The notes beneath the pieces were generated by a model. The model was given only the letters and a program-made list of their open reading frames with translations, searched no databases and had not been told where the DNA came from. DNA of 64,000 nt from Chloroflexota bacterium (lineage in GTDB: Bacteria > Chloroflexota > Anaerolineae > Promineifilales > Promineifilaceae), in assembly GCA_024277135.1 (NCBI GenBank), contig JAJRVV010000102.1, positions 22,885 to 86,884 on the forward strand, in the 5' to 3' direction. Positions within the stretch are counted from its first letter, which is position 1. Each line of letters begins with the position of its first letter. Position numbers and translations under genes: made by a program. This document shows, one piece after another, positions 24,201 to 63,434 of this stretch.

Positions 24201-25098
24201 GATTCACCAGCGCCGTCCCCACCGCCGCCGCCGGGTCCGCCAGCAGCCGCAAACGAAGCTGACCATTCATTTGCCCCGGCAGCCCGGCCGGCGCATAAAA
24301 CACAACTTCATTCGTCGTCGTCATCACCATCGTCCACAGCCCCGGCCAATCCATCGCCTGCCAGCTAACCAGCGTGGTGGAGAGCGGCAAGGTATCGGTC
24401 AACACTGCCGGGCCAGAAGCGGCGCCGCCCATATTGCTGTAGTTGATGTCGTACACAACCGTTTGACTTGGCGTCGGATCTGCCGGCATCGGCCCCTTAT
24501 TTACCTGCAAATCAACCACGTCAAAATTAACCGGCGCATTGCCCGTACAAACCGAATTGTTCAGGAGATCAGTATCGCCCGGCGTGGTGGAACTGATTCC
24601 TGCGCAATTTATGTCTAGTTGTGACGAGGGGAAACCGGGATCAATGTTAAGCGCCACATAAAAGGTTTCATTCGTGTTCGTCAGCAAAACGCCCAACGTC
24701 CAGGTCACAATGTTGCCCGGCCCTACTACAGGCGATATCCCTAACGAATCATAGGCATAGGTGGTAGACAAGGGCAGGGTATCCGTGAGAATGACGTTGT
24801 CGGCCTGCGCTCCGCCCTGGTTCCCATAATTTATTTGGTAGATGTACACACCGCCGGGAACGGCCGCGCCTGACGTCCCCATCTTTTGCACGTAGATGTC
24901 GTGGGCGGCAGCCACGCGGGCGGCCACGCTCCCGGCGCCTGCTTCGGCCAGAGGTAGAGAGACGGGTTCCGGCTGCCACGTTTCCAATGCTGACAGGGAA
25001 ACAGCTTCGGCAGACGGTACGGAGAAGGCTGTCACCAGGAACAATAAACCAGACAGCGCACCAATGATAACCAAGATTAACAACAATGAACGACGCAT
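18220..25098 (-). CDS. Giant secreted DUF11-repeat protein with IPT/TIG, CARDB and PPC domains
   Basis: A 2292-aa surface protein. Signal peptide about 1-32 (LLLILVIIGALSGLLFLVTAFSVPSAEA). About nine DUF11 (PF01345) repeats of 110-150 aa, each with a VTDTLP/ITDTLP core and a D-x-DxxN-type end, fill about 45-600 and 930-1690. A cysteine-poor region at about 600-930 (HIYGDTTIDP ... YNCSWDPFTEWDIKPGQ) matches nothing I know. IPT/TIG pairs (about 1695-1870), CARDB (about 1880-2010), an Ig-like unit (about 2010-2120) and a PPC domain (about 2130-2230) follow. It ends YTVYLPVVLRQ. It is likely an adhesin or sheath component. GGAGGG precedes the ATG. No catalytic site is visible. Confidence 0.85.
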   Translation of the reverse strand: MRRSLLLILVIIGALSGLLFLVTAFSVPSAEAVSLSALETWQPEPVSLPLAEAGAGSVAARVAAAHDIYVQKMGTSGAAVPGGVYIYQINYGNQGGAQADNVILTDTLPLSTTYAYDSLGISPVVGPGNIVTWTLGVLLTNTNETFYVALNIDPGFPSSQLDINCAGISSTTPGDTDLLNNSVCTGNAPVNFDVVDLQVNKGPMPADPTPSQTVVYDINYSNMGGAASGPAVLTDTLPLSTTLVSWQAMDWPGLWTMVMTTTNEVVFYAPAGLPGQMNGQLRLRLLADPAAAVGTALVNRVEIDAPGDVDLSNNLFEDSTAVVSPPREDVWINKSAHTAVPVPGGWINYFVNYANNGNTAVPVIITDTLPPELSYAGAFWGGGQPQQNDPFPPPAVLGNQLVWNLGVLQPGEAAWFHIDMNITNTASLTVPVTNCIDIANLATDVTPVDNTACVSLWLNPPGPNLKVTKQGQWMGNSQLRYEIAVKNIGTVSSTNVLVTDTLPISTTATGFQEFEPVWGSITPPGFFSSGNIVSWNFPNLAPGDFAYARFDVDLDPGLIGLPFQTFTNTVEITGGADIDLSDNVFVDVATSGLEINWVDIDVDSGHIYGDTTIDPVSITTAYTQTVFPFSGYFDWTFPQPFLPGDVVTVTAGAGIQPVIITIPTPFTATASSTTDQVWGRIDNLNAEPVAVELANSGEIVNTTTDSAGNFLANFTDIPPGGDGEVRYQTVINAAAVTFHKPYRALDFLLGVNYGHDWVEGRYEPGHTVWITVTDSSSVTIKATAVLTTGPVPWWGGDTGFSTDWPGWDFGIRPDIQSGDWVFARLDTGQTAAVQIGAISGAVDSATDSISGAISAPWWMPSLLNIECQAWGSPGGAPSRTGTVLPDGVAAYNCSWDPFTEWDIKPGQEVGVAYFEPDGDIVYNVFVEAAPDLVVGKTSAGQPTAGGGYSYNVTYANNGGAIANNVLITDVLPADMTYITDTTGVPSTVAGNVVSWDMGSLSPGENGFFDVFVDVSAGVAPGTVLTNTAVISSNEVDPNPGDNTVDWTTMTIANDTHVYVTKGSWTPDPAPGYDFVYTVDACNYGATGSAPVTLTDTLPAETTLVAWWANIPGWSELSSGPNQLVVTRPTVDAGTCWTIFVQVTLSPVITPGTPITNTAVITSSNDLDAGDNQTTLVLNAGVPRLNLDVKKQWNGGDLVPGGVINYNISVANSGNIPVAAPVWVTDTLPMGTTFQDAWLQTDTGPVQAVPVISGTGFVVWDVGALDAGAGAALDVQLGINNSTAPGTALTNTAEVVPLTGEVTYDDNVAVWVEQVYPPGPNLRVRKEGGWVDNGPGTRAVWYNVFVENVGDAPVNNVVVTDTYPASMVLLGGVNSDWPFFWSWADLAASNQLTVTFDALYPGEAARFDFTAEVPGSGPLAAGLVFDNYVRVMRPSGDPTPLDNLDSFILGTGPDLAVSKEFVAGIPLPGELITFNVHWSNREGGNEWWWGTMGDVWITDTLPDDLEFVSAIWPSCGNCPIVPDTVQGNQLGFRLVPIGAGAFDEILITALVSDTARSGSILVNQVVITSTNPISDADPFRQDNAAFSEFQVQYPSGVADMSVQKIAAPDPVQVGQMLVYTLTVTNNGPDAATGVILYDALPFSVLPNALFGAQNCNLTNAGDLICNLGGMIAGESITITLWVTPTVVRDIVNYAVVDANEIDINPQNDISGVQTTVTDQAQVFLVAILPDSGTNDQSTSVTVLGANFQNGAVLSLGGTLLQSITFISPKQLQAIVPSGMTSGIYDLEVVNPDGASDMLLNAFVVVEPTPPVLFDSWPPLGPNDVPVTLDIYGVNFAPGISVTLETGGFLGRSFGAAAPTVIPLQGIALLSPYHLRAIVPINTPPGVYTLTVVNPNQTSAQLPMAYESVDAASLDDLYAQTLDFWAQPPTIRAGAAVTPLIGLRVHRASGQTPLANVKVAFWDGDPQAGGAFIGLGSVPLIDPGDKGSTLPVPWQPAAPGVYTLYAVIDSGDSVVETNEMNNVVTRTVTVLPSLPDTTPPSVISFTVNGGAQTTNDRQVALNISAVDSALRSLQPASDVIGVIYVEFEFVQSIKDWVPVQVSDWLPYAQASVDYLWQLRPSPGAHYIKAWVADGAGNVSPTPGSQLINYMPDQAEIVEGQVYIYRVRLNAGDGLRVRLTSLAGDADLYVWNPDSTSAGSSYNDSLASTVDEVSFTAAMDGVYQIEVEGFATLSLYTLEVIPTVSTTTPLLIARPSGRARGQPMLVPGEDPTDDVGLPSAEPGAYTVYLPVVLRQ

Positions 25099-42574: not shown

Positions 42575-43369
42575 TCATTTCCAGCGAGTGAGGATGGTTT
42601 CCCGTTGGAACAGTTGAATCGCCAGATAAACGAGAACCACGTCCAACACGGCCGTCACCGCCGCCATCACCCAAATCATCGTCTGGTTCACCAGAATCAA
42701 GCCCATGGATTGGCCCACGATGAGCAAAATCAAGGGCATGATGACCAGCGCCGACAACTGTTCCGCCACGCGCGGATCGGAGACGCGGGATGAGACCATG
42801 ACAGCCACGCTGACGGCCGTGATCGTCAACAACGGCCCCACCACAAAAATGGCGATCAACCACTCCGGGGCGATCACCTGAGCGAACACCACATCATTCA
42901 CCATAAATCGGGCCGTTACCACGTATATCAGAAATGCCAGCCAGGTGGCCCCCACCGCCGGCACAAACGCGGCAATCGTCTTGCCCGCTAAAAGTTCCGT
43001 TGTGGTGATAGGCGTTGCCAACAGCGGCTCCAAGCTGCGGGACGTTTTCTCCCCGACAATGCTGTAAGCGGCGATGGTGGCCGGAATGGCCACCGGCAAA
43101 ATCATAAACATCAAGGTGTAGAGATTGAGCATATACGCTTGGACGCAATCAGCCTCTTCCATGTCTACACACAGATCGCCCACCAACTCCTCCGGCATCT
43201 CATCCGCAGTTGACATGGAGCTGCCATCATCAAACGAATTAATGGCGACCAACGTGGCAATGGGTAAAATGATGAAGATCAAAGGCAAAAAGGCGACGGT
43301 AAACAACACCAGCCGGTTCTTAAAAACTTCTGCCCATTCTTTGCTAACGATTGTTTTTACTTTGTCCAT
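42575..43369 (-). CDS. ABC-2 type exporter permease
   Basis: A 264-aa protein with six predicted helices and a cytoplasmic start (VKTIVSKEWAEVFKNRLVLF). The first extracytoplasmic loop (about 45-80) is acidic and contains two Cys (VGDLCVDMEEADCVQ). Conserved ABC-2 features are GEKTSRSLEPLLATPITTTELLAGK near residue 110 and RVSDPRVAEQLSALVIMP. It is the membrane half of a NatAB-like exporter with the ATPase 8 nt upstream. The cargo (ion, lipid, drug or peptide) is unknown. Confidence 0.88.
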   Translation of the reverse strand: MDKVKTIVSKEWAEVFKNRLVLFTVAFLPLIFIILPIATLVAINSFDDGSSMSTADEMPEELVGDLCVDMEEADCVQAYMLNLYTLMFMILPVAIPATIAAYSIVGEKTSRSLEPLLATPITTTELLAGKTIAAFVPAVGATWLAFLIYVVTARFMVNDVVFAQVIAPEWLIAIFVVGPLLTITAVSVAVMVSSRVSDPRVAEQLSALVIMPLILLIVGQSMGLILVNQTMIWVMAAVTAVLDVVLVYLAIQLFQRETILTRWK

Positions 43370-43377
43370 TTTTTCAC

Positions 43378-44298
43378 CTACGATTCATCACCTTCGTTGA
43401 CCAACTGCAAGTAGATGTCTTCTAATGAGTGGCGCAGTTCGCCCACAAATTGGATATTGGCGCCGGCATTGACCAGCCGGCGAATGAGTTCCGGATTGTG
43501 CGTTTCCGGATCGTCCAGCGCCAATATCAGCTTGTTGTCAACAGCCTGGATCTGGTTGATGAAGCCGCAGTCGGCAACGGCCGTCACAAAAGGTTCCGCG
43601 CTCGCTTCCGCCAGATGGATCACCACCTGACGGTCGTACATCTGCTGCCTCAACCCGGATGGGGTGTCTACCACCCGCAGGCGGCTGTTAAACACCGCAA
43701 TACGGCCGCACAACCGATCCGCTTCATCCAAGTTGTGGGTGCAGATGAACATCGTGCGCCCCTGCCCCCGCAGTTCGGTAATGAAATCCCGCACCAGTTT
43801 GGCCGCCTCCGGGTCCAGGCCGGCAGTTGGCTCATCCAAAAACAACACTTTCGGCTCGTGGAGCAAGGCGCGGGCAATCGCCAGCTTTTGTTTCATCCCC
43901 TTGCTGAACGTGCTGGCCGCATCCTTTCGCCGTTCCCACAGCCCCAGCATCCGCAGATATTTTTCCACCTGTCCCGGCACATCGGCCACTTCGTAGAGAC
44001 GGCCGTAAATCTCCAGATTCCGCTGCGCCGACAGCCGGTCATACAACCCTGGCGTCTCCGTCAGAATGCCCACATTTCGGCGAATCTCCTGGTCATCCCG
44101 CCCCGCCTGGTAGCCAAACACCGTCGCTTGTCCGGCCGTCGGCCCGATGAGACTGGTCAGCATCCGCACCGTCGTCGTTTTCCCGGCCCCATTCGGCCCC
44201 AAAAAGCCAAACACCTCTCCTTCATCAATTTCCAGCGTCAGCCGATCCACGGCCACATGCTCATCAAACTTCTTCGTCAACCCCACCGTCTTAATCAT
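43378..44298 (-). CDS. ABC exporter ATP-binding protein (CcmA/NatA type)
   Basis: A 306-aa ATPase. Walker A GPNGAGKTT near residue 37, signature TFSKGMKQKLAIARAL near 135, Walker B KVLFLDEPTAGLDP and H-loop CTHNLDEADRL. The C-terminal extension (about 215-306) is the DrrA/NatA-type accessory region. It pairs with the ABC-2 permease directly downstream and with the YhfC-type protein upstream (11-nt gap). Confidence 0.92.
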   Translation of the reverse strand: MIKTVGLTKKFDEHVAVDRLTLEIDEGEVFGFLGPNGAGKTTTVRMLTSLIGPTAGQATVFGYQAGRDDQEIRRNVGILTETPGLYDRLSAQRNLEIYGRLYEVADVPGQVEKYLRMLGLWERRKDAASTFSKGMKQKLAIARALLHEPKVLFLDEPTAGLDPEAAKLVRDFITELRGQGRTMFICTHNLDEADRLCGRIAVFNSRLRVVDTPSGLRQQMYDRQVVIHLAEASAEPFVTAVADCGFINQIQAVDNKLILALDDPETHNPELIRRLVNAGANIQFVGELRHSLEDIYLQLVNEGDES

Positions 44299-47907: not shown

Positions 47908-48648
47908 ATGTCACATCCCTTTCCCCCAGTTTTGATCGAAAAGTTAAAAACAGCGCAGCGGGTGGCCGTCCTCACCGGGGCCGGTGTCTCGGCCGAAAGC
48001 GGCGTGCCCACCTTCCGTGAAGCCCAAACCGGCCTGTGGGCGCAGTATGACCCGCAGGAGTTGGCGACGCCGCGCGCCTTCCGCCAAAACCCGAAGCTGG
48101 TGTGGGAATGGTATGCGTGGCGGCGGCAGTTGGCGGCAAAAGCGGAACCCAATCCCGGCCATTTGGCTCTGGCGGAGATGGGAAAGCGCGTCCCTCACTT
48201 CACGCTGATCACGCAAAATGTGGATGGCCTGCATCCTCGTGCCGGCAGCCGACATGTGGTGGCGCTGCACGGCGACATCACCCGCACCAAATGTTTTGCC
48301 GACGGCCGTCCCGTCGCCGTCTGGCCCGAAACCGACCAAATCCCGCCCCGCTGTCCCCGGTGTGATGGCCTGCTCCGCCCCGACGTGGTTTGGTTTGGCG
48401 AGGGGTTGCCGCCGGATGCGCTGGGTACGGCCGTGTCCGCCGCCCGCAGTTGCGACCTATTTTTCTCCATCGGCACCTCCGCCCTCGTCCAGCCCGCCGC
48501 CTCCCTGCCCATCGAAGCCTTAAACAGCGGCGCCTTCGTCGTCGAAATCAACCTCAACGAAACCCCGCTGACGCCGCACATCCATCTGCTGCTCAAAGGC
48601 GCTTCAGGCGTGATACTGCCCAAGCTCATCCAGGCGGTTTGGGCGTAA
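47908..48648 (+). CDS. SIR2-family NAD-dependent protein deacylase
   Basis: 246 aa from ATG 47908 (GGAGGCAGCC upstream). Rossmann motifs LTGAGVSAESGVPTFRE, TQNVDGLHPRAGS and the catalytic His in LHGD are intact; GTSALVQPAASLP follows. WEWYAWRRQL places a Tyr and Arg as in class III (SIRT5/CobB-type) desuccinylases. The zinc ribbon is incomplete: TKCFADG supplies one Cys and RCPRC two, so one of the usual four is missing. It removes acyl groups from lysines using NAD. It follows mgtE by 14 nt and may be co-transcribed. Confidence 0.9.
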   Translation: MSHPFPPVLIEKLKTAQRVAVLTGAGVSAESGVPTFREAQTGLWAQYDPQELATPRAFRQNPKLVWEWYAWRRQLAAKAEPNPGHLALAEMGKRVPHFTLITQNVDGLHPRAGSRHVVALHGDITRTKCFADGRPVAVWPETDQIPPRCPRCDGLLRPDVVWFGEGLPPDALGTAVSAARSCDLFFSIGTSALVQPAASLPIEALNSGAFVVEINLNETPLTPHIHLLLKGASGVILPKLIQAVWA

Positions 48649-48683
48649 AAGACATCGATTTCTTAGAGAAATCGGATGTCTTA
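48649..48683. repeat. AGACATCC-family palindromic element (sirtuin-sortase spacer)
   Basis: AAGACATC-GATTTCT...AGAAATCGGATGTCTT is the family consensus with a one-base deletion in the left arm. It directly follows the sirtuin stop codon and precedes the -10 box of the sortase gene. Confidence 0.8.
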
Positions 48684-48686
48684 GTT

Positions 48687-48692
48687 TATACT
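48687..48692 (+). promoter_or_regulatory. -10 box for a probable leaderless sortase mRNA
   Basis: TATACT ends 6 nt before the sortase ATG, with no Shine-Dalgarno. The palindromic element occupies the -35 region. Confidence 0.5.
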
Positions 48693-48698
48693 ACCCGC

Positions 48699-49487
48699 AT
48701 GGCTGAACAAGACCCCTCTGAACCCCGCGTGCCGTTGAGCGTGGTATTGATGTCGGTAGGCGGCATTATTTTGGCGGCGGTGTTGCTGATTTGGGCATTG
48801 GTTCCGGCCGCCATGCCCAGAGGCGTGTTTCGGGTGGTGACGGCCGTATTCCCCAACAACAGCCCCCCCCTGCCCACCCCCGTCCCCGCCGCCAGCCTGC
48901 CCGATTTAGCCCCCCAGCCCGGCGGCATAGTCGCCTTGCTGCCCGAAACCCCCATCGAACCGGAATCGCTGCCAGAATACTTCGTCAACGCGGCCGACGC
49001 CATCGTCGCCGACCCGCTGGCCGGCCAGCCCATTCGCATCGTCATCCCCCAGATTGATTTAGATGCGCCGGTCGTCGAGAGCCAACTCACGCCCATTGAG
49101 AGCGACGGCCAAACCTATTACCAATGGCAGGTTCCCAACGGCTTCATGGCCGGGTGGCACAATAGTTCCGCGCTTTTGGGCCAAAAGGGGAACACCGTCC
49201 TCAACGGACATCACAACATCTTTGGCGAACTGTTTCGGGATTTGATTGACCTGGAACAAGGGGCGGAAATCGTCATTTACGACGACAAACGCGCCTTCAC
49301 CTATCGGGTCACGGAGAAATGGATTTTGCCAGAGCGGGGCCAACCGCTGGAAGTACGTTTAGCCAACGCCCGCTGGATGGCCGCCGCCAATGATGAGCGC
49401 ATCACCCTGGTCACCTGCTGGCCTTACACTGACAACTCCCACCGGCTCATCATCGTCGCCAAACCAGTGGGCGCGGCCGGGTCCTAA
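48699..49487 (+). CDS. Sortase (class D/E-like transpeptidase)
   Basis: 262 aa from ATG 48699. The ORF-track start at 48390 lies inside the sirtuin gene and is rejected. It has a short cytoplasmic start, one helix (about 15-37), a Pro-rich stretch to about 90, then the sortase beta barrel: PQIDLDAPVVES, catalytic His in TVLNGHHNIFGELF, Cys in TLVTCWPYTDNSHR and the Arg seven residues later. Sortases attach surface proteins to the wall or pili by cleaving an LPxTG-like signal. No LPxTG-type protein is in this window. It appears leaderless. Confidence 0.9.
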   Translation: MAEQDPSEPRVPLSVVLMSVGGIILAAVLLIWALVPAAMPRGVFRVVTAVFPNNSPPLPTPVPAASLPDLAPQPGGIVALLPETPIEPESLPEYFVNAADAIVADPLAGQPIRIVIPQIDLDAPVVESQLTPIESDGQTYYQWQVPNGFMAGWHNSSALLGQKGNTVLNGHHNIFGELFRDLIDLEQGAEIVIYDDKRAFTYRVTEKWILPERGQPLEVRLANARWMAAANDERITLVTCWPYTDNSHRLIIVAKPVGAAGS

Positions 49488-52293: not shown

Positions 52294-55200
52294 TTACGGT
52301 TTCATGACGACGGGCAAGTAGATGTATTGCCGGTTGACGGTAGTGGTTAAGGTAACGGCCGTCTTGACAGTGGGCGCCGTCAACGAAGCGGCGGTGAAGG
52401 TAATCACCTCCACCGACGCTGCGCCGGCGGCCGGCACCGTGACGGTGACGAATATCCCCGCCGCCGCTCCCGGAGCCAGCGTCACGTCAGCGGGGACGAT
52501 CACTATCCACTCAGCATTGGACACGGCCGTAAACGTGAACGTGTCGGTGAAATTGCCGGTGTTGGTGATGGTGTGACTGTACACCGCCTCCTGCCCCGGA
52601 TCGGCCGTTTGCGCTCCATCTGGCGTCAAACTTACCCCCACCACATTCAAGATAGTAGTTCTGGCCGTCAGGTCGGGGATGGAGAAGGTGTCGGCGATAT
52701 TGCCGGAGACGGCCGTTTGGTTCACCACATCAAATGGATTGCCCGGCGTACCCGCCACCTGAACCTGATAGTTAATATGCGCCTCATCTCCCCCGGCCAG
52801 GCTGCCGGTCCAAATGATGCTGTTTGTGTTAGTGTCATACACAACCCCGCCGACGCCATCCAGCCCAACAGAACCGTTTACATACGCCGTGTTTGCCGGA
52901 ATCGCATCCACTAAAGTAATGGTCGAGCCGGTTCCATCATCGCCGCTGTTCGTCAGCCAGATGTCATAGGTCAATGTATCCCCCACCCAGGCGGTGGACT
53001 GATCAACCCCTTTGAACGAGGCGGCTAGACTAAGCGGCGACTGCGTCCGGCCCGCGCCGCCAACCACCGGCTCCAAGCCAATATCCAGGTGAACCGGTGT
53101 TGTGATCACCGTTAATACCTGGCTCTGGAACGGTTGATAACCGGGGGCTGATGCTTCAATTCGATATTGACCGGATGGAGTGAGGAAGCTGTAATATCCG
53201 GCCGTCGGCACTTCATCCGCCACCGATGGATCCGTGGCTTGCGGATTCACCTGCCCATACAGATAGGCGGGCCATTCCTGCCAGGTATCGTTCAGCTTGA
53301 CAAAAGCAGTCACGGTGGCGTTTAGAACGAGTGCGTCAGTAATGGGCGATCCGGCGTCCACCAGCGACTGATCATACACAAAGCCGTCCGGATCAATCAA
53401 GATGAAGATGAGCAGTTCCGAATAATCCACACCATCGCACTCCCACTTCACCCAGATTTCATAACTACTATGCGGCTCAGCCAACCAGACTCGGTATTGC
53501 GTCAACCAATCCGATGGTCCGGCCACTGTTGTCGTGATCGCTGGGATGTTGTAGGTGAACAGGCCGTTTTCCGTCACCTCCAGATAAGCGGTCGGCGTCA
53601 CCGAACAAGGCAGCGCTACCTCAACATCCAGAGTGCGGTGGGCCAGCGTCCGAATTTCGGCGCGGACGCTGCCGCTGGCGATGCCGGCGCCGTTGGCTGA
53701 AATGTCTACAAGGTCGGTGTCCAGCGGCAGGTTGTCGGCGACGACGATGGTGACGGCGTTGGAGTAATTGCTGGTCAGCCCCGCTTTGCTGGCCTGGGCG
53801 ACGATGGCGTAAGTGCCGGTGACCGACAAAGTCGGTTCGATGCTGAATGTGCCGCTCACTGTAGCGGTGGTACTCATCACCCAGGTAGCTGAGCCGCCGG
53901 ATAGGTCGTAGAAATCTACGACTGAGCCGGAGGGAGCCGACCCGCTGAAGGTGGGCGTGTTATCGGTGGTTCCCTGGGTAGGCCGCAAGATGACGGGAGC
54001 CAGGATGTCGGCGACGGTTTCAACGTGGCTGTCGCTGTTGTTGCTAAAACTGGTTTCGGGGCCGCCGTAGTTGATGACGGCCGTGTTCGTCACCGTCCCC
54101 ACATTTGTGATTTCGGCCGTCACCTGAATCTGGCCCGACCATTGATTGCCGGGCAGCGTGGGCAGCGTCCAGGTAACGACAGAACCGTCCATGCCATCCG
54201 GCGGCGGGCTGGCGCTCCAGTAGCGCACTTCCGGCGGCAGGGTGTCGGTGATGACGGCCCCCGAAGCCGGCGCGCCGCCCCAGTTGGCGTAGCCGATGTA
54301 ATAATCAAACATCTCGCCTACGGCCGGTTGGCCGACGCCATTTTTCGTCACCGCCAAATCCACATCTTCGCGTACCGTGATTTGGTGGATAAAGCCATTG
54401 TTGCCCGGCTGCGTGTCCGCCTGGTCGCCGCCAATCTGGACGCTGTTGCTGATGATTGCGCCATGCGTGGCCGTCGCCGGAATTTGCACGGCGATGGCGA
54501 TAGTTTGCTGCGGGCTGCCGCCGGGCAAATCGCCCAGGTTCCAGAGCAGGTTGGTTCCGGTGATGGCGTCTGGCGGCGGGTCGGCGCTGACGTAGGCAAC
54601 GTTGCCGGACAGCGTGTCCAGCAGCGCAGCGTTGGTCACAGTGAACGCGCCCGCGTTGCGGTAGCTGACGACATAGGTGATGGCGCTGCCCGGCTGCGGC
54701 GCGGGGCTGTCCGGGCTGAGCTGCTTGCGCACTGTCAAGTCATACGGGTTGGCTGGCATCTCCCATTCGGCGATGTTCCAGGTGTAGGGCGTGTTTTGCG
54801 CCGATGGCGGGCTGAAGTTGAGCAGGATGGGGGTTGAGGCCACGCGAGCGGCCCAGAAATGGCTCACCCAAATGGGCATGTCTTGAGAAAACTCGGCCAT
54901 TTGATCATCGTAGTCGGCTTGCAGCGCGGCCGCGTCCAATTCGGTGCGGGCGGCCTCAAGGAAAGCGTCGTTGGCGCTGTTGCGCCAGCCGGTATTGTAG
55001 AGGTTCCAGGAGTAATTGTTGTAAGCGGAGGCGATTTGACTGCTGTGGAAGAGTACATCGCCCATGGGGTCATACCGGTTGTCGAATCCCCAACCTAACG
55101 TGTAGGAATCGAGACGGCCGTACCGGATATCCTCCAGCATATTCCCCCAATCCGCATCAACCACCTGCACATCCACCCCAACGAGAGCCATATCCGCCTG

Positions 55201-58200
55201 GAATTGGAAGGCCAACGCCTGTCGAGAGATAGAGCCGGTGGGGTAGACGAGATCAAATTGCAGTTCCACCCCTCCTTTGTCGCGGATGCCGTTCCCATTG
55301 GTGTCTGCCCACCCAGCGGCGGTTAGCTGAGCGGCAGCGGCGGCCAGATCGGGGAAGTAGCTGGTGAAGGGAGCGGCCAGCGGGTGGCCGGGCGGCAGCC
55401 AGGAAGCGTCTCCCGGCGCGAGCGTAACGCCGGGCAGCGCCGCCGCAATCTGATTGACGGCGGCGGGACGGTCAAAGGCGCGGTAGATCGCCTGGCGCAC
55501 GGCCGTCTCCTGGAAGATGGGGTTGCGCAGATTAGGCATAATGGCGTCGAACCGGTTATACATAGACGTGAAAACGCGGATGTCGAACGGAGCCAGATCG
55601 TCGGGCCAGCCATCGCCGACCAGCGTCACTTCGGCGCTGCCCTCCGCCAGCGGCCAGAAGTTGTCGCCGGTGAAGAGGAAGCGGATTTCGGGGATGCGGG
55701 GATAGCCCAACCCCCGTTTGTGGTAGTTGGGGTTGGCGCGCAGGTCGAGATGCGCGCCGGGAATCCATTCCTCAACCACGTAGGGGCCGTTGCCCACCGG
55801 ATTGTGGGCGAACAGGCTGCCGTAACGGACGTCGAAGGGATGCGTACCGCTGAGGACGTGTTCCGGCAGGGGGTAGAGGATGGCGCCCAGGTAGGCGGGC
55901 GGGAATTGGCGCGGTTTGTAGGTGAGGACGGCCGTCAACGCATCCGGCGTATCCACCCGTTCAATCTTGCGGGCGGTTGAGATGAATGCCAGATAGCCGT
56001 CCGACTGCGGGTGCGGCCGGATCATCTGCTCCCAGGCAAAACGGATGTCGGCGGAAGTGAGCGGCGCGCCGTCTGACCAGAGCAGCCCCGGTTTGAGGGT
56101 GTAGGTGACGACGAGTTGATCGCCATGAACGACCGCGCCGCCATTGGCCGGGGTGGGAACCTGAACCAGCAATTCGCTGTACCAGTTGCCGCCGTCGTCC
56201 AACTGCGCCAGCGGCTCGAACAGGGCGGGTAAAATCTGATCCACAGTCCGCAGGTAAGCGCCCTGGCCGGAGGTGTAGGGGGTGAAGTCGGAGGCAGGAT
56301 TGGCGCGGACGGTGAACGGCCGAGGCGGAGGCGTCCCCTGCGTCATCGTCAGGTTCAGGGTGTAGCTGCCGCCGGAAACGGCCGTCAACGTTTGGGTCAC
56401 GCTTTGGTAATCGTATGCGCCGCAGTCGCCGACGGCCGTGATGATCACATCCCCCGGCCAGAGGCGGTCAATGGCGTAACTGCCGTTTTCATCGGTGCAG
56501 CCGTTCCACTCTGCGGCCGTCTCCCGGTTGTTCACGGCGTCTACCGTCAACGCCGATATCTGAATGCCGCCCAAAGGCTGTCCTGTCCCCGCATCTGTCA
56601 CCTGGCCGCTAACCGAGGCGGGGCGTTCCAGCGTCATGGTGATGAAGGTGGAAGCGGGCAGGGGGTTGATGGAGAGCGGGGCGCCGTTGGCAGCGGTACG
56701 GCCGTTGGGATACACGCCCAACACCGTCTCCCAGAACTCATCAGAGATAAAGGTCACGATATGATCGCCCACCGGCAGATCAATGGTGAAGTAGCCGTTG
56801 GTTTGCGAGTAACCGTACCAGACGCCGGAATCATTAAACGCGCTGACCCGCACCCCTTCAATCGGGGTGGAGCCGTCCAGTTCATACACATATCCTTCCA
56901 ACTGCCCGGCCAGCGGCGCTTCAAAGTCCAGGCCGGTGATGGTCTGGCCGCTTTCCAGGCGGATGCGCTCCGCCCAATCCGAATCATGACCGCCATAGAG
57001 AGTATGGGCGCGGTCGCCGCCCCACCATCCCGTCTCGATAGTATAGTCGCCCGGCGGCAAATTTGTGACGGTGTAATAGCCGCTGGCGTCCGTTTGCGCG
57101 CCGCTGCCCATCTCATCGGCATGGACATCGAGATTGAGGTTGGCGACGGGAACGCCGCCATCGGTGACACGGCCGGCGATGGTCGCGCCCGGCCCTAAGT
57201 CAAAGTCCCAATGGGCGTTTTCGGCCAAGTCGAAATCATGCGCCTGTTTCTGAGCCAGATCAGTGCCCCACGGCCGCGCCGCCACCGCCCAACGACTATC
57301 ATAAATTGGGGGAACCGGAATCTGGTAATAGCCGCTGGCGTCCGTCGGCCGTTCTGTGCCATAACCATACTCAATCGTTTGCCAGACACCAATCTGTATC
57401 CCCGCCGCCGAGTAGCCGGGGGGGACGGTGACTGTGCCGGTGATCAGCGCGCCGGAATTCAAGCCAAAATCAACGCCGGTGACGGTAATGCCGGACGTGA
57501 CCGTGATCAACGCCGCATCCTGGATGTGATAAACATCACTGTAATACTCATTCACCAGGAATTGTCCATTACAGTCAGCGCAGGCGTAGACGACGTATGC
57601 TCCCGGCGGCAGCGGGCCGAGCAGGTACTTTCCGTTAACATCGGTGTCAGCGTCTTGAACCCAGTTGCTGCACCAGGGGCAGTTGAGATCGGGAATCAAC
57701 GCGCCCATGCGCAGATTGGATACCGGCGCGCCGCTGGTTTCGTCCAGCGCGGTTCCGGCGATGTAACTGCCGCCGCCCAACGCGAAATTAATGTTGCCCA
57801 CATTGGGCGAGCCGCTGTTGACCGGGATCATGTCTGCCTGGTCATAGAAAAACTTGCCATCGTAAAACTCGCCGACGTAGCTGTTAGGTTGATCCAAACA
57901 CCAGTTCCAGCCATCGGCGGCGGAGACGACGTAATCGCCATAGGGCAGGCCGTTGATCACGTACACGCCGTTGGCGTCGGTGCAGACGCCCATGCCGCCC
58001 TGACCGGGCAGATCGGCGTTGATGTTAATATTTTCCAGGGGCAGACCGCTGTTTTCATCGGTGACGATGCCGGTGATGACGCCGCCCGGTTGGAGGGGGA
58101 AATCAATGTCAGTGACGGTGCCGCCGCCGGAGATGTTGACCGGTGTGGCCGCGTCATAGTTGACGGCTTGATCATAGTATTGGCGGGCGTATCCGGCCGG

Positions 58201-59880
58201 AATACTGTTGCTGTCATCCACCCGAACCCGGTAATCCTCATCCGGCAGGCCGCCGATGACGTAGTAGCCGTTGGCGTCGCTGCTGGCGTTTCCCCAATAC
58301 CATTCGTTGTTGCTGTCGTAGGCGCTGGCGGAGACGTTAACATCGGCCAGGGGAGCGCCGCTGCCGGCGTCGGTGACGCGGCCGGTGATGACGCCGCCCA
58401 GGTCAAGGGTGAAGTTGACGCCGGTGTACAGGTCGCTCCCGGCGGTGAGGGTGAAGGGAACGGCCTGATCCAGAAGCAGGGTCTCGGAGTAGTATTCGCG
58501 GACGTAGAGGGATTGTTGATCCAGACACCAGTTCCAGTCGCCGCCGGCGCGGATTCTGTAGGTATCGTAGGGGAGACGGCCGAGGGTGTACATGCCGTTA
58601 GCGTCGGTGCAGGTTCCCATGCCGCCGCGCTCGATGTCTACGTTGATGTTCGCCAGCGGAGTGAAGCCGTCGCTGGCGTACACTATGCCGGTGATGTCGC
58701 CGCCGGGTTCCAGAGCAAAGTCGATATTGCCCACTGCGCCGCCGCCGATGATGGCGACGCGGTCAGCCTGCCAATGGTAAAGATGAGCGTTGTAGTATTG
58801 GCGGGCGTAGCCGGGGGGCATGTTGTTGGGGTCGTCAATGCGGACGCGATAATCGGCGTCTATCAGGCTGGTGATGGTGTAGTAGCCGCTGCTGTCGCTC
58901 CACCCGCCACGGCCGTTGCCGCCATTATCATACTCATCGGCATAAACCCAGGTGGCGCTGATGGGCAGGCTGGCAGCGGCGTCTGTAACCTGGCCGGTGA
59001 TGACGCCGCCCATGCTCATGGTGAAGTCAATGCCGGTGACGGTATCTTGGGTGATGGTGATGAGGAGCGGGGCCGCCAGATTGATGTCCGTCGTCTCTGA
59101 ATAGTATTCAATCAGATAAACAGAGTCCTGGTTGATGCACCAGTTCCAATCCCGGCTGGCGACGACTTTGTGATTGCCGTAGGGGATGCCCTGGATGGCG
59201 TAACGGCCGTTGGCGTCGGTACAAGTTCCATACCAGCCTTGTTCCAGGTCTACGTTGATATTTTCCAATGGGGTAATACCATCATCAGCGTAAACTGTGC
59301 CGCTGATGACGCCGCCGGGCTGGGCGACGAAGTTGACGCCGGTGATGACGGCGGCTCCGGTGATGGCGACGGCGTCGGCTGATTGGCCGTCTACTTGCCC
59401 GTTGTACCATTGGTTGGCCCACGGATAGCCGGCATTGAGCCTGAGCGCGTAATCCTCATCCGGCAGACCGCCTAGATAGTAGCTGGCGTCGGAGAGGCTG
59501 TAGATGTTACCGGCGTAGTTGAAGTCGGGCAGGATAAAAATCTCAACATTGCCGTTGCTCAACGGCGTTGAACCATCGCTTTCAAACAAACTGCCGCTGA
59601 TGACGCCGTAGTCGGGGGTGGCGATACGGCCGTTGACGGATTGGCTGCCGATGATGTCCACCCGGCCCACGAAGGGTTCGCCAAAGGGGGCGTTGTTCAT
59701 ATCGTAGGTGTAAGATGCGCCAGAGTTGAGGTTGATGGGGCCGTCGCTGGCCAGGTAATCGCCATTGGGCCAGTAGAAGTCGAATGTATAGCCGGCGCTG
59801 ATGGTTCCGGTGTTGGTGATGACGAAGGCGGATGAGAAACCGTTGCCGCTGTCGTTGCGATGAAGCGTGGACAGGGTGAT
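52294..59880 (-). CDS. Giant secreted protein: carboxypeptidase-regulatory repeats + SBP_bac_5 + DUF11 (main part of a split gene)
   Basis: The listed ATG is 59700 (2468 aa), but the frame stays open to 59880 and reads as good beta-sandwich protein (LHRNDSGNGFSSAFVITNTG). Residues 30-1120 (numbered from 59700) hold about ten CarboxypepD_reg-like repeats, several with paired CTDANG and WNWC cysteines. Residues about 1125-1645 form a complete SBP_bac_5 peptide-binding domain (LKPGLLWSDGAPLTSADIRFAWEQ; NPVGNGPYVVEEW). Then come two DUF11 units, an Ig-like domain, another regulatory repeat, DUF11 and a NEW3-type domain. The tail is YIYLPVVMKP. It lacks its own signal peptide; the segment with one lies directly upstream in the same frame, behind a TAA. 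It is probably a surface protein inactivated, or expressed in pieces. Confidence 0.8.
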   Translation of the reverse strand: MTLSTLHRNDSGNGFSSAFVITNTGTISAGYTFDFYWPNGDYLASDGPINLNSGASYTYDMNNAPFGEPFVGRVDIIGSQSVNGRIATPDYGVISGSLFESDGSTPLSNGNVEIFILPDFNYAGNIYSLSDASYYLGGLPDEDYALRLNAGYPWANQWYNGQVDGQSADAVAITGAAVITGVNFVAQPGGVISGTVYADDGITPLENINVDLEQGWYGTCTDANGRYAIQGIPYGNHKVVASRDWNWCINQDSVYLIEYYSETTDINLAAPLLITITQDTVTGIDFTMSMGGVITGQVTDAAASLPISATWVYADEYDNGGNGRGGWSDSSGYYTITSLIDADYRVRIDDPNNMPPGYARQYYNAHLYHWQADRVAIIGGGAVGNIDFALEPGGDITGIVYASDGFTPLANINVDIERGGMGTCTDANGMYTLGRLPYDTYRIRAGGDWNWCLDQQSLYVREYYSETLLLDQAVPFTLTAGSDLYTGVNFTLDLGGVITGRVTDAGSGAPLADVNVSASAYDSNNEWYWGNASSDANGYYVIGGLPDEDYRVRVDDSNSIPAGYARQYYDQAVNYDAATPVNISGGGTVTDIDFPLQPGGVITGIVTDENSGLPLENININADLPGQGGMGVCTDANGVYVINGLPYGDYVVSAADGWNWCLDQPNSYVGEFYDGKFFYDQADMIPVNSGSPNVGNINFALGGGSYIAGTALDETSGAPVSNLRMGALIPDLNCPWCSNWVQDADTDVNGKYLLGPLPPGAYVVYACADCNGQFLVNEYYSDVYHIQDAALITVTSGITVTGVDFGLNSGALITGTVTVPPGYSAAGIQIGVWQTIEYGYGTERPTDASGYYQIPVPPIYDSRWAVAARPWGTDLAQKQAHDFDLAENAHWDFDLGPGATIAGRVTDGGVPVANLNLDVHADEMGSGAQTDASGYYTVTNLPPGDYTIETGWWGGDRAHTLYGGHDSDWAERIRLESGQTITGLDFEAPLAGQLEGYVYELDGSTPIEGVRVSAFNDSGVWYGYSQTNGYFTIDLPVGDHIVTFISDEFWETVLGVYPNGRTAANGAPLSINPLPASTFITMTLERPASVSGQVTDAGTGQPLGGIQISALTVDAVNNRETAAEWNGCTDENGSYAIDRLWPGDVIITAVGDCGAYDYQSVTQTLTAVSGGSYTLNLTMTQGTPPPRPFTVRANPASDFTPYTSGQGAYLRTVDQILPALFEPLAQLDDGGNWYSELLVQVPTPANGGAVVHGDQLVVTYTLKPGLLWSDGAPLTSADIRFAWEQMIRPHPQSDGYLAFISTARKIERVDTPDALTAVLTYKPRQFPPAYLGAILYPLPEHVLSGTHPFDVRYGSLFAHNPVGNGPYVVEEWIPGAHLDLRANPNYHKRGLGYPRIPEIRFLFTGDNFWPLAEGSAEVTLVGDGWPDDLAPFDIRVFTSMYNRFDAIMPNLRNPIFQETAVRQAIYRAFDRPAAVNQIAAALPGVTLAPGDASWLPPGHPLAAPFTSYFPDLAAAAAQLTAAGWADTNGNGIRDKGGVELQFDLVYPTGSISRQALAFQFQADMALVGVDVQVVDADWGNMLEDIRYGRLDSYTLGWGFDNRYDPMGDVLFHSSQIASAYNNYSWNLYNTGWRNSANDAFLEAARTELDAAALQADYDDQMAEFSQDMPIWVSHFWAARVASTPILLNFSPPSAQNTPYTWNIAEWEMPANPYDLTVRKQLSPDSPAPQPGSAITYVVSYRNAGAFTVTNAALLDTLSGNVAYVSADPPPDAITGTNLLWNLGDLPGGSPQQTIAIAVQIPATATHGAIISNSVQIGGDQADTQPGNNGFIHQITVREDVDLAVTKNGVGQPAVGEMFDYYIGYANWGGAPASGAVITDTLPPEVRYWSASPPPDGMDGSVVTWTLPTLPGNQWSGQIQVTAEITNVGTVTNTAVINYGGPETSFSNNSDSHVETVADILAPVILRPTQGTTDNTPTFSGSAPSGSVVDFYDLSGGSATWVMSTTATVSGTFSIEPTLSVTGTYAIVAQASKAGLTSNYSNAVTIVVADNLPLDTDLVDISANGAGIASGSVRAEIRTLAHRTLDVEVALPCSVTPTAYLEVTENGLFTYNIPAITTTVAGPSDWLTQYRVWLAEPHSSYEIWVKWECDGVDYSELLIFILIDPDGFVYDQSLVDAGSPITDALVLNATVTAFVKLNDTWQEWPAYLYGQVNPQATDPSVADEVPTAGYYSFLTPSGQYRIEASAPGYQPFQSQVLTVITTPVHLDIGLEPVVGGAGRTQSPLSLAASFKGVDQSTAWVGDTLTYDIWLTNSGDDGTGSTITLVDAIPANTAYVNGSVGLDGVGGVVYDTNTNSIIWTGSLAGGDEAHINYQVQVAGTPGNPFDVVNQTAVSGNIADTFSIPDLTARTTILNVVGVSLTPDGAQTADPGQEAVYSHTITNTGNFTDTFTFTAVSNAEWIVIVPADVTLAPGAAAGIFVTVTVPAAGAASVEVITFTAASLTAPTVKTAVTLTTTVNRQYIYLPVVMKP

Positions 59881-60363
59881 TTAATATCCGGCCGCGCGCC
59901 GGGGGACAACGGCGGGGGCTGGGGAGCGGTATGGTTGGCGAGTGACGGATTGGAGAGATCGGGGAGCGGGGGAGCGAGGGGGCAGGGACATGACGACCCG
60001 CGGCGGCGGAGAGAAGGTGTCTGGCGATGATGAGGGGCGAGGCGGCCGATTGGTGAGCCAGGCCGGAGGAGGTTGATCCTGGGAATGGTTGGCCGGTCGT
60101 TCTATAACAGGCTGATCAAAAATGTTTTCGATAGACTGCTCTGGGGAACGGCCGTCAGCCGCTTGAGTTGGTGGATCAGCGGCGCTTTCCGAGGCGCGGT
60201 CTGGCGCTGACGCGGGGGTGAAATGGGTCACGGCCGTTTCCGGCGACAAACTCTCCGGATCAAAAACAGACGCCTGGGCGGGCGTCTGTCCAAATGAAAA
60301 GATAAAGCCAAGAATACAAACTGCAAACAGAACAGGAACGAAAAGGACCGCAAAACGCCGCAT
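59881..60363 (-). CDS. Signal-peptide N-terminal fragment of the giant secreted protein
   Basis: 160 aa from ATG 60363, preceded by GGAGGTGTGTG. Residues 1-30 are a signal peptide (MRRFAVLFVPVLFAVCILGFIFSFG ... AQAS). The rest is a Pro/Ser/Arg-rich linker ending PRRAAGY, then TAA at 59881-59883. The frame is identical to that of the 2468-aa ORF: 681 nt separate the two ORF-track starts, which is 227 codons. Removing the TAA would give one protein of about 2690 aa with a normal export signal. Alone, the fragment has no recognisable folded domain. Confidence 0.75.
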   Translation of the reverse strand: MRRFAVLFVPVLFAVCILGFIFSFGQTPAQASVFDPESLSPETAVTHFTPASAPDRASESAADPPTQAADGRSPEQSIENIFDQPVIERPANHSQDQPPPAWLTNRPPRPSSSPDTFSPPPRVVMSLPPRSPAPRSLQSVTRQPYRSPAPAVVPRRAAGY

Positions 60364-60680: not shown

Positions 60681-63434
60681 GTGTGGCGCAGCCTGCCTCC
60701 CTTTGGAGAAATTGATCTGATGGATAGAAAAGAAACGGCCGAACAGCAACGCTTAAAAGACAAACGGTGGCAAAAATGGGGGCCCTATCTCAGCGAACGC
60801 GCCTGGGGCACGGTGCGCGAGGATTACAGCGCCAGCGGCGAAGCGTGGGAGTACTTCCCCCACGACCACGCCCGCAGCCGCGCCTACCGCTGGAACGAAG
60901 ACGGCATCGGCGGCGTTTGCGACGACCAACAGACGATTTGTATGGCGCTGGCTTTCTGGAACGGCCGTGATCCCATCCTCAAGGAGCGTTTCTTCGGCCT
61001 GACCGGCAACGAGGGCAACCACGGCGAGGACGTGAAGGAGATCTACTTCTACCTGGACAACACCCCCACCCATTCCTACATGAAGATGCTGTACAAATAT
61101 CCGCAGGCAGAGTTTCCCTATGCCGACCTGGTGGCGGAGAACGGCCGTCGCCCGCGCCAGGCGTTTGAGTACGAGTTGCTAGATTCGCTACACGAAGCGT
61201 TTGAGCAAGGACGCTACTTTGACATCACCATCGAGTACGCCAAAGCGGACGCGGAAGATATTTTGTGCCGGGTGACGGCCGTCAATCGCGGCCCTGACCC
61301 GGCTCCACTGCATATCCTGCCCCACCTCTGGTATCGCAACACTTGGTCGTGGGGGGATGGGGGCATAAGACATCCGATTTCTCAAGCGACCTCCGGTCGC
61401 CGAAATCGGATGTCTGAGACGCCGACTGCCTACACCAACCACCCTGTTTTAGGCGAAAGGTGGTGGAGTGTGGACAGCGGCGCATTGATGTTCACCGAAA
61501 ACGAATCGAACAAGGAGCGGCTGTGGGGCGCGGCCAACGATTCCACCTACGTCAAGGATGGCATTCACGAGGCGGTGGTGAACGGCAGACATCCGATTTT
61601 TCAAAGAAATCGGATGTCTACGACTAACCCCGACCAGGGGAGTAAGGTGGCGGCGCATTGTACGGCCGTCATCCCCCCTGGCGGCAGTTTCACCATCCGC
61701 GCGCGGTTTAACAATCAACAGCCAATAGTTAACAGCCAACAATCAACGGGGCCGTTTGTGGGTTTTGATGCGATTTTTGAGCAGCGGATTGCCGAGGCGG
61801 ATGAATTTTATGCGGCCGTGCAGCCCCCCGCCCTGAGCGGCGATGAGCGCAACGTGCAGCGGCAAGCGTTCGCCGGGCTGCTGTGGAGCAAGCAGTTTTA
61901 CCATTACCACGTGCAAAAATGGCTGGATGGGGACCCGGCTGGGCCGCCGCCGCCCGATTCACGCAAATACGGCCGTAACCGCGACTGGTTTCACCTGGAC
62001 AACGCCGACGTCATCTCCATGCCCGACAAGTGGGAGTATCCCTGGTACGCCACCTGGGACACGGCCTTCCACATGATCCCGATGGCGCTGATTGACCCCG
62101 ATTTCGCCAAAGCGCAGCTCATCCTCTTCCTGCGCGAATGGTACATGCACCCCAACGGCCAATTGCCCGCCTACGAATGGGCCTTGGGAGACGCCAACCC
62201 GCCCGTCCACGCCTGGGCTTGCTGGCGCGTCTACAAAATTGACCGCAATATAAAAGGAAGAGCCGACGCCGAATTTTTGGAGCGCGTCTTCCACAAACTG
62301 CTGCTCAACTTCACCTGGTGGGTCAATCGCAAGGACGCCGACGGCAACAACGTCTTCCAGGGCGGCTTTTTGGGGCTGGACAACATCGGCGTCTTCGACC
62401 GCTCCGCCCCGCTGCCCACCGGCGGCCACATGGAGCAGGCGGATGGTACCGCCTGGATGGGGATGTACTGCCTCAACATGATGGCCATCGCCCTGGAACT
62501 GTCCCGCACCAAACCTGCCTACGAAGATGTGGCGACCAAATTCTTTGAGCATTTCATTTACATTGCCAACGCCATCAACAAATCGTGTGGCGAACAGGGG
62601 TTATGGGACGAAAAAGATGGCTTTTACTACGACATGGTACACACGCCGGACGGCCGTTTCTTCCCCCTCAAAATCCGCTCCCTGATCGGCCTCATCCCCC
62701 TCTTTGCCGTGGAGACGCTGGAGCCGGAGGCGCTGGACGCGCTGCCTAATTTTCGCGGCCGCATGGAATGGTTCATCGAAAACCGGCCCGATTTAGCGCG
62801 TAACATCCATTCGCTGATCGAACCGGGGGTTGACGGCCGCCGCCTCCTCTCCCTCGTCAACCAGGAGCAGCTGACGCTGGTGCTTAAGCGGATGCTCGAC
62901 CCCGGCCAATTCCTTTCCGACTACGGCCTGCGCTCTCTCTCCAAACGGCATGAAGCGGAACCGTTCGCGCTGCATCTGGACGGCCGTACCTACACCGTCC
63001 GCTACGAACCGGCCGAATCGCAGACGGGCATGTTTGGCGGCAACTCCAACTGGCGCGGTCCCATCTGGTTCCCGGTCAACTATTTGATGATCGAATCGCT
63101 GCAAAAGTACGCCCACTACTGCGGCGACGCCTTCAAAGTGCAGCTGCCCCGCCGCTCCGGCAACTGGATGACGCTGGATGAGGCGGCGGCTGATTTGTCC
63201 GGCCGTCTCGTCCGGTTGTTTTTAAGGGGTGGGGACGGCCGTCGCCCCATCTACGGCGGTCTGGACATCTTCCAAAACGATCCCCACTGGCGCGACCACA
63301 TCCTCTTTTACGAATACTTCCACGGCGACAATGGCGCCGGGCTAGGGGCCAGTCACCAAACCGGTTGGACGGCGCTGGTGGCAAAGCTGATCCAATACAG
63401 CGGCAAACCCCCTGTCCAGGCAGGAAGCGGGTGA
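60681..63434 (+). CDS. GH63-like glucosidase (MGH/glucosylglycerate-hydrolase-like clade)
   Basis: A 917-aa (alpha/alpha)6 glycoside hydrolase. GTG 60681 has CAGGAG 5 nt upstream; ATG 60720 ([12 protein letters not shown]) is also plausible from family starts. N-terminal beta domain with [23 protein letters not shown]-like opening, [17 protein letters not shown] and [24 protein letters not shown]. The catalytic barrel (about 430-900) includes [28 protein letters not shown] and [20 protein letters not shown] with the general-acid Asp region, and a late [15 protein letters not shown]. It probably cleaves alpha-glucosidic bonds of small compatible-solute-type glucosides or oligosaccharides, in the cytoplasm since no signal peptide is seen. 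Two palindromic elements and one heptamer repeat are inserted in frame. Confidence 0.88.
61368..61415. repeat. AGACATCC-family palindromic element inside the glucosidase gene (copy 1)
   Basis: AGACATCCGATTTC (61368-61381) and GAAATCGGATGTCT (61402-61415) are 14-bp perfect arms around a nested GCGACC/GGTCGC stem. The 48 bp read through in frame as 16 codons ([18 protein letters not shown]), in a loop of the N-terminal domain. Confidence 0.9.
61587..61619. repeat. AGACATCC-family palindromic element inside the glucosidase gene (copy 2)
   Basis: AGACATCCGATTT (61587-61599) and AAATCGGATGTCT (61607-61619), 13-bp perfect arms and a 7-nt centre. The 33 bp are in frame and read [11 protein letters not shown], similar to the peptide of copy 1. 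Confidence 0.9.
61711..61750. repeat. Heptamer repeat inside the glucosidase gene
   Basis: AACAATCAACAGCCAATAGT plus TAACAGCCAACAATCAAC is a degenerate heptad repeat (CAACAGC/CAATAGT/TAACAGC). It encodes [12 protein letters not shown] in a low-complexity loop. Confidence 0.7.

Follow-up and report, generated by a model that had tools for sequence, protein, structure and literature searches.

A complete SBP_bac_5 (PF00496) domain was found in the middle of a giant protein built of surface-type repeats, and the same fusion was observed in four genera of one family. The gene lies on the reverse strand at positions 52294-60363 of the window (the whole stretch of DNA analysed here, 64,000 nucleotides in length), with its extent, from signal peptide to C-terminal tail, set by orthologues of 2766-2800 aa. 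We tentatively favour the reading that this giant protein is secreted and forms a long stalk, on the cell surface or on a sheath, which carries an SBP_bac_5 domain that still binds a ligand but would be uncoupled from any ABC importer.

Architecture of the giant gene

The 2468-aa open reading frame (52294-59700, reverse strand) is present in the window. An ATG at 60363, with a GGAGG upstream of it, lies in the same frame and begins a signal peptide (MRRFAVLFVPVLFAVCILGFIFSFGQTPAQA; 60271-60363, reverse strand) that was read by eye and that lines up with the N-terminal ends of the three orthologues. The first-pass annotation had given a span up to 60363; in the present copy this is not a single open frame, as an in-frame TAA (59881-59883, reverse strand), absent from the three orthologues, interrupts it between the signal peptide and the 2468-aa frame and leaves two open parts. 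Since the 2,528 codons downstream of the TAA are otherwise open, the stop is either an error in the sequence or a nonsense mutation so recent that this copy is a fresh pseudogene. The question of the SBP-fusion architecture is untouched by it. A promoter and terminator scan returned matches near chance level.

The SBP_bac_5 domain occupies approximately residues 1125-1648 of the 2468-aa frame (54757-56328, reverse strand; Pfam core 55066-56130). The Pfam match (168.5 bits against a cut-off of 32.4, E 3e-49) covers residues 1191-1545 and 342 of the 368 model positions (12-353). In the alignment, the first strand of the domain resembles the opening strand of mature SBPs, and its last residues are TWNIAEW, with which its unfused (lipoprotein) relatives typically end. 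The nearest solved relative by sequence is AppA (1xoc, E 1e-29). An AlphaFold model based on a 28-sequence alignment has a pLDDT of 86.8 and a pTM of 0.85; the construct is not resolved in it up to about residue 36, the first strand included. Foldseek matched this model to AppA (E 2.9e-33) as well as to NikZ and NikA; the TM-scores to 4oer and 1uqw are 0.80 by target length, and several of the best TM-scores belong to unliganded or open structures. The N- and C-terminal parts of the two-lobed fold of the AppA/NikA/GsiB type are complete in the model, the first strand apart. The first-pass annotation had placed a complete SBP_bac_5 domain at about residues 1125-1645 and had proposed profile searches and structure prediction as checks; both bear it out, as Pfam, the PDB sequence search and the fold search support the family, so that the profile failure that would count against it was not seen, and the predicted two-lobed domain is kept in all the orthologues.

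The domains around the SBP are all encoded on the reverse strand. A beta-rich N-terminal domain without a Pfam name (LHRNDSGNGFSSAFVITNTG...; 59611-59868), with a mean pairwise identity of 48% among the four orthologues, is followed by carboxypeptidase-regulatory-like repeats, some eleven in number and each ~100 aa long (56329-59607; PF13620 and PF13715, limits by repeat spacing), close to the ten or so counted at first reading. In the 2468-aa frame CarboxypepD_reg (PF13620) matched in nine stretches (E 7e-80) and PF13715 in four. Downstream of the SBP lie two DUF11 domains (54022-54753; PF01345, TIGR01451), and three DUF11 stretches were matched in the whole frame (E 2e-32). The best-conserved part of the protein is the next one (53068-54021), where an Ig-like domain, a region particular to this protein family and a module of carboxypeptidase-regulatory-like type (LIDPDGYVYD...) share 55-60% identity with the orthologues and residues 2111-2211 reach a mean pairwise identity of 72%. 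A relative of this module (53068-53370; LIDPDGYVYD...WPA..YGQ.NPQ.T...GYYSFLTPPG) was observed in another protein of the source genome with the same kind of tail (G000:C11, L116). A third DUF11-type domain (52660-53067; best TIGR01451 stretch at residues 2230-2282, DUF7927) and a NEW3-like domain (52336-52659) complete the scaffold. The DUF11, Ig-like and NEW3-like domains expected after the SBP were recovered with differing clarity: PF01345 is clear, Big_13 (E 6e-4, in the Ig-like region) falls below its cut-off, and PF10633 is weak in this copy and was seen in orthologues (E 2e-6 and 1e-7).

The chain ends in the tail IYLPVVMKP (52297-52323, reverse strand), identified by DNA-pattern search and orthologue alignment and common to other secreted proteins. 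Two DNA patterns for YLP[VM][VI]x[RK] located it at the end of at least seven proteins of the source genome, where reversed control patterns gave no match. These proteins are encoded on contigs C11, C51, C58, C88, C181 and C205 of G000 (L116-L122), and their readable ends mostly consist of Ig-like and other domains of secreted proteins. One of the seven, another giant secreted protein of the window (18220-25098, reverse strand; 2292 aa) with eight DUF11 stretches, CARDB and PPC, ends in VYLPVVLRQ, and the orthologue tails read VYLPFVIRP, VYLPMMLR and VFLPAIMRAP. A sortase anchor consists of an LPXTG-like motif, a transmembrane helix and a basic tail, whereas this chain ends at IYLPVVMKP; as no transmembrane helix follows, the tail is not a sortase signal. 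Its recurrence suggests a sorting or anchoring tail, possibly a sorting signal as yet unnamed.

Orthologues, origin and a second fusion

Three uninterrupted orthologues (2793, 2800 and 2766 aa) were found, each in another genus of the same family, so that the proposal to look for the same fusion in other Chloroflexota was answered in three further genera, with unrelated gene neighbours. The fusion is present in four of the 52 genomes of the family, the source genome included. The domain order from signal peptide to tail is identical in the three orthologues, identity is ~50% throughout, and their SBP_bac_5 scores are 173-200 bits. A scan of GTDB r220 contigs with degenerate forms of two peptide patterns, by which rarer or more diverged fusions may be missed, returned JACSRF010000217.1, JAGOMA010000021.1 and JAHEEY010000126.1 with the same lengths and matches as the orthologues, and no further relative above 31% identity; the other matches whose frames were checked were all below 700 aa. 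A full scaffold lacking the SBP, which was sought to date the insertion, was not found in the 52 family genomes at the thresholds used, where only partial matches occurred.

In five of the six orthologue pairs, the SBP (45-51% identity) and the rest of the protein (48-54%) are nearly equally conserved. The closest pair (G032-G001) differs, with 53.5% identity in the SBP against 69.5% in the remainder and flanks. The lobe III segment shows 41-46% identity in every pair and the SBP is richer in gaps. Because fold and frame are kept at ~50% identity, purifying selection on the SBP is implied; without constraint, a domain would have lost both at such divergence. The faster change of the SBP in the closest pair fits relaxed constraint or a looser role as well as it fits a shifting specificity.

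A tree built from 30 SBPs groups the four embedded domains in a single long-stemmed clade (100/100), which is nested together with unfused SBPs of Chloroflexota in a larger one (96/97). These near relatives are ordinary proteins of ~600 aa, at least one of which is encoded in an Opp operon: downstream of L037, the nearest unfused relative, come genes for two permeases and two oligo_HPY ATPases, which make up a full Opp/Dpp operon. Given a single clade and unfused relatives of importer type, the simplest history would be that an SBP of importer type was captured a single time, ahead of the divergence of the four genera. In the clade nearest the fusion, a Roseiflexaceae SBP_bac_5 gene (L055, 2405-4219) is an orphan, followed by dprA-like and ftsW-like genes and by no permease.

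A second fusion was found in another genome of the family. This 1788-aa frame (G011:C106) contains a complete SBP_bac_5 domain (E 5e-42) in the order signal peptide, seven FG-GAP-like repeats, Ig-like domain, SBP_bac_5, Ig-like domain and the tail RIYLPVVLRQGP. Its SBP is sister to an unfused SBP (G017:C55; 100/99), apart from the other four, and the fusion is therefore independent. It shares with the giant protein a signal peptide, repeats, a complete SBP_bac_5, an Ig-like domain and a tail of the form YLPVVx[KR], but its repeats are FG-GAP-like instead of carboxypeptidase-like and its SBP comes from another branch. This fusion was seen in one genome only; among the listed relatives of its SBP in 298 genomes of the class, no frame exceeded 1,000 aa.

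Elsewhere in the family, SBP_bac_5 occurs in various contexts. The giant frame is one of eleven SBP_bac_5 matches listed for the source genome, the other frames being 570-882 aa long. An 870-aa frame of this genome has two different binding domains, SBP_bac_3 followed by SBP_bac_5 (L097, 1458-4067, contig C43), and SBP_bac_5 frames of ~800-870 aa were also observed in other family genomes. Among the matches listed for twelve family genomes, every SBP_bac_5 frame above 1,000 aa other than G011:C106 and the orthologues has the layout kinase-AAA-SBP, BTAD-AAA-SBP or cyclase-AAA-SBP, and no signal peptide was readable by eye in these frames. Four such regulators with a C-terminal SBP_bac_5 were located at L111 1914-5318, L112 2162-6211, L113 924-5396 and L114 4203-8009 (G030, G059 and G032). 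These Ser/Thr kinase-AAA, BTAD-AAA and cyclase-AAA fusions are apparently cytoplasmic regulators. SBP_bac_5 is a promiscuous module in this family, which makes one more fusion less surprising and yet supports a role outside transport.

Neighbouring genes and known systems

The absence of an adjacent ABC permease, noted at first reading, is upheld: no BPD_transp_1 domain was detected by Pfam among the window genes scanned around the giant gene, and neither an importer permease nor an ATPase was found among the scanned neighbours of the four copies. The permease and ATPase genes that adjoin an importer subunit were thus seen beside none of the four copies and are present at the unfused L037. The ABC genes at 42575-44298 of the window are of exporter type. 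Neighbouring genes differ among all four copies, and conserved neighbours were rejected as a functional clue, the genes concerned (glycoside hydrolase, phosphoglycerate mutase, PAS kinase/S51 peptidase and PBP_like_2) being unrelated. In the window, an MGH1-like/GH63-type glycoside hydrolase gene (60681-63434, forward strand) adjoins the giant gene and is divergently transcribed; none was seen beside the orthologues. About 3 kb beyond the 3' end of the giant gene is a gene for a sortase-family protein (48390-49487, forward strand; PF04203, E 5e-25).

The giant protein resembles AppA/OppA, GsiB, DppA and NikA in the sequence and fold of its whole two-lobed domain. Those proteins are single-domain and encoded beside permease genes, whereas here the domain is placed mid-chain in ~2,700 residues without lipobox or permease. 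With Gram-positive-type repeat adhesins (SdrD_B/CarboxypepD_reg/DUF11) it has in common a signal peptide, tandem Ig-like repeats and DUF11, but it lacks the LPXTG-transmembrane-basic tail and carries an SBP set among the repeats. Other SBP_bac_5 domains with non-transport partners are known, as in FrnA, where the domain is joined to LytR-CpsA-Psr (PMC2632651). FrnA and the kinase, BTAD and cyclase fusions of the family are similar to the giant protein in this respect, although their partners are different and the family fusions look like cytoplasmic regulators instead of secreted stalks. SBPs have been described as proteins of 20-65 kDa whose role is to offer substrates to transporters or to stimulate receptors (PMC9602780). 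No description of an SBP within a repeat stalk was found in the open literature searched, which is weak evidence as many journals lie outside its coverage.

Possible roles of the embedded domain

The display reading assigns a part to each region of the protein. The signal peptide would export the chain, the C-terminal YLPVVxK tail, judging from its recurrence on secreted proteins, would sort or anchor it, and the repeat domains would keep the SBP away from the membrane. The two lobes may then close on an external ligand, either capturing peptide-like matter or attaching to ligand-bearing surfaces. The ligand is probably of the oligopeptide type, in view of the SBP family and the Opp/Dpp operon of L037. 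A solute or peptide trap working away from the membrane, as first proposed, fits this arrangement as predicted from sequence. The retention of the fusion in four genera, together with a second separate fusion, makes it probable that the domain is a genuine binding device no longer tied to transport, and the idea of display is strengthened by the second SBP fusion, which arose independently and bears the same C-terminal tail. Counting against a binding head are the rarity of the fusion (four of 52 genomes) and the stop in this copy.

A somewhat less probable, though serious, possibility is that the SBP fold no longer binds a small ligand and that the protein is a giant adhesin in which this domain acts as another globular spacer or adheres to other proteins. 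The repeat and Ig-like domains around it are typical of surface proteins, and in the closest orthologue pair the SBP is less conserved than its scaffold, with lobe III and the gaps as described above. An SBP acting as an adhesin also has a precedent: Mycoplasma hominis OppA is reported to be an oligopeptide-permease SBP that has ATPase activity and is also active in attachment (PMC3179953, PMC2323007). As described there, that SBP is not embedded in repeats. However, all four orthologues retain both lobes in full, and SBP_bac_5 has been captured on two occasions, which is more than a spacer needs.

It is unlikely that the giant protein works as a normal importer subunit, only with a long tether, and hands its ligand to a permease encoded elsewhere. 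Its relatives are importer SBPs, L037 among them, and the family genomes hold many SBP_bac_5 systems. On the other hand, no permease gene lies near any of the four copies, and an importer subunit is a single-domain lipoprotein or periplasmic protein, whereas this SBP sits mid-chain, flanked on both sides by ~800-1300 residues, and the N terminus shows no readable lipobox; such a domain could dock only awkwardly on a permease in the membrane. Rather less likely still is a receptor in which ligand binding to the SBP is relayed to the cell as a signal. The regulator fusions of the family indicate that SBP_bac_5 has been reused in apparent regulators, but they are without a readable signal peptide, and the giant protein ends in YLPVVMKP with no transmembrane helix or signalling domain recognised, so that the anchored sensor suggested in the first-pass annotation finds no footing. 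A non-working gene, whether a chimeric assembly or a pseudogene, is very improbable: the in-frame TAA and the draft state of the source genome (251 contigs, 5% contamination) would allow it, but a chimera is excluded because three independent assemblies carry the same uninterrupted fusion, an assembly or gene-calling artefact was rejected for the architecture on these intact orthologues, and the TAA bears on this copy alone.

Returning to display on a secreted stalk, a complete SBP among surface repeats, present in four genera and arrived at a second time independently, suggests that such modules can bind outside the cell as heads that take no part in uptake. More broadly, and with somewhat greater reserve, these proteins may represent transport-independent extracellular binders, in which, within one Chloroflexota family, giant secreted stalks that share a tail acquired peptide-type SBPs on at least two occasions; these would serve as heads for capture or attachment whose specificity diversifies faster than the stalk. 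The YLPVVx[KR] tail offers a handle on the sorting of secreted proteins in these bacteria. Chloroflexota are thought to help structure the flocs of sludge and wastewater. The isolate names of two of the orthologue assemblies suggest sludge or wastewater, and a binding head in sludge Chloroflexota could bear on attachment.
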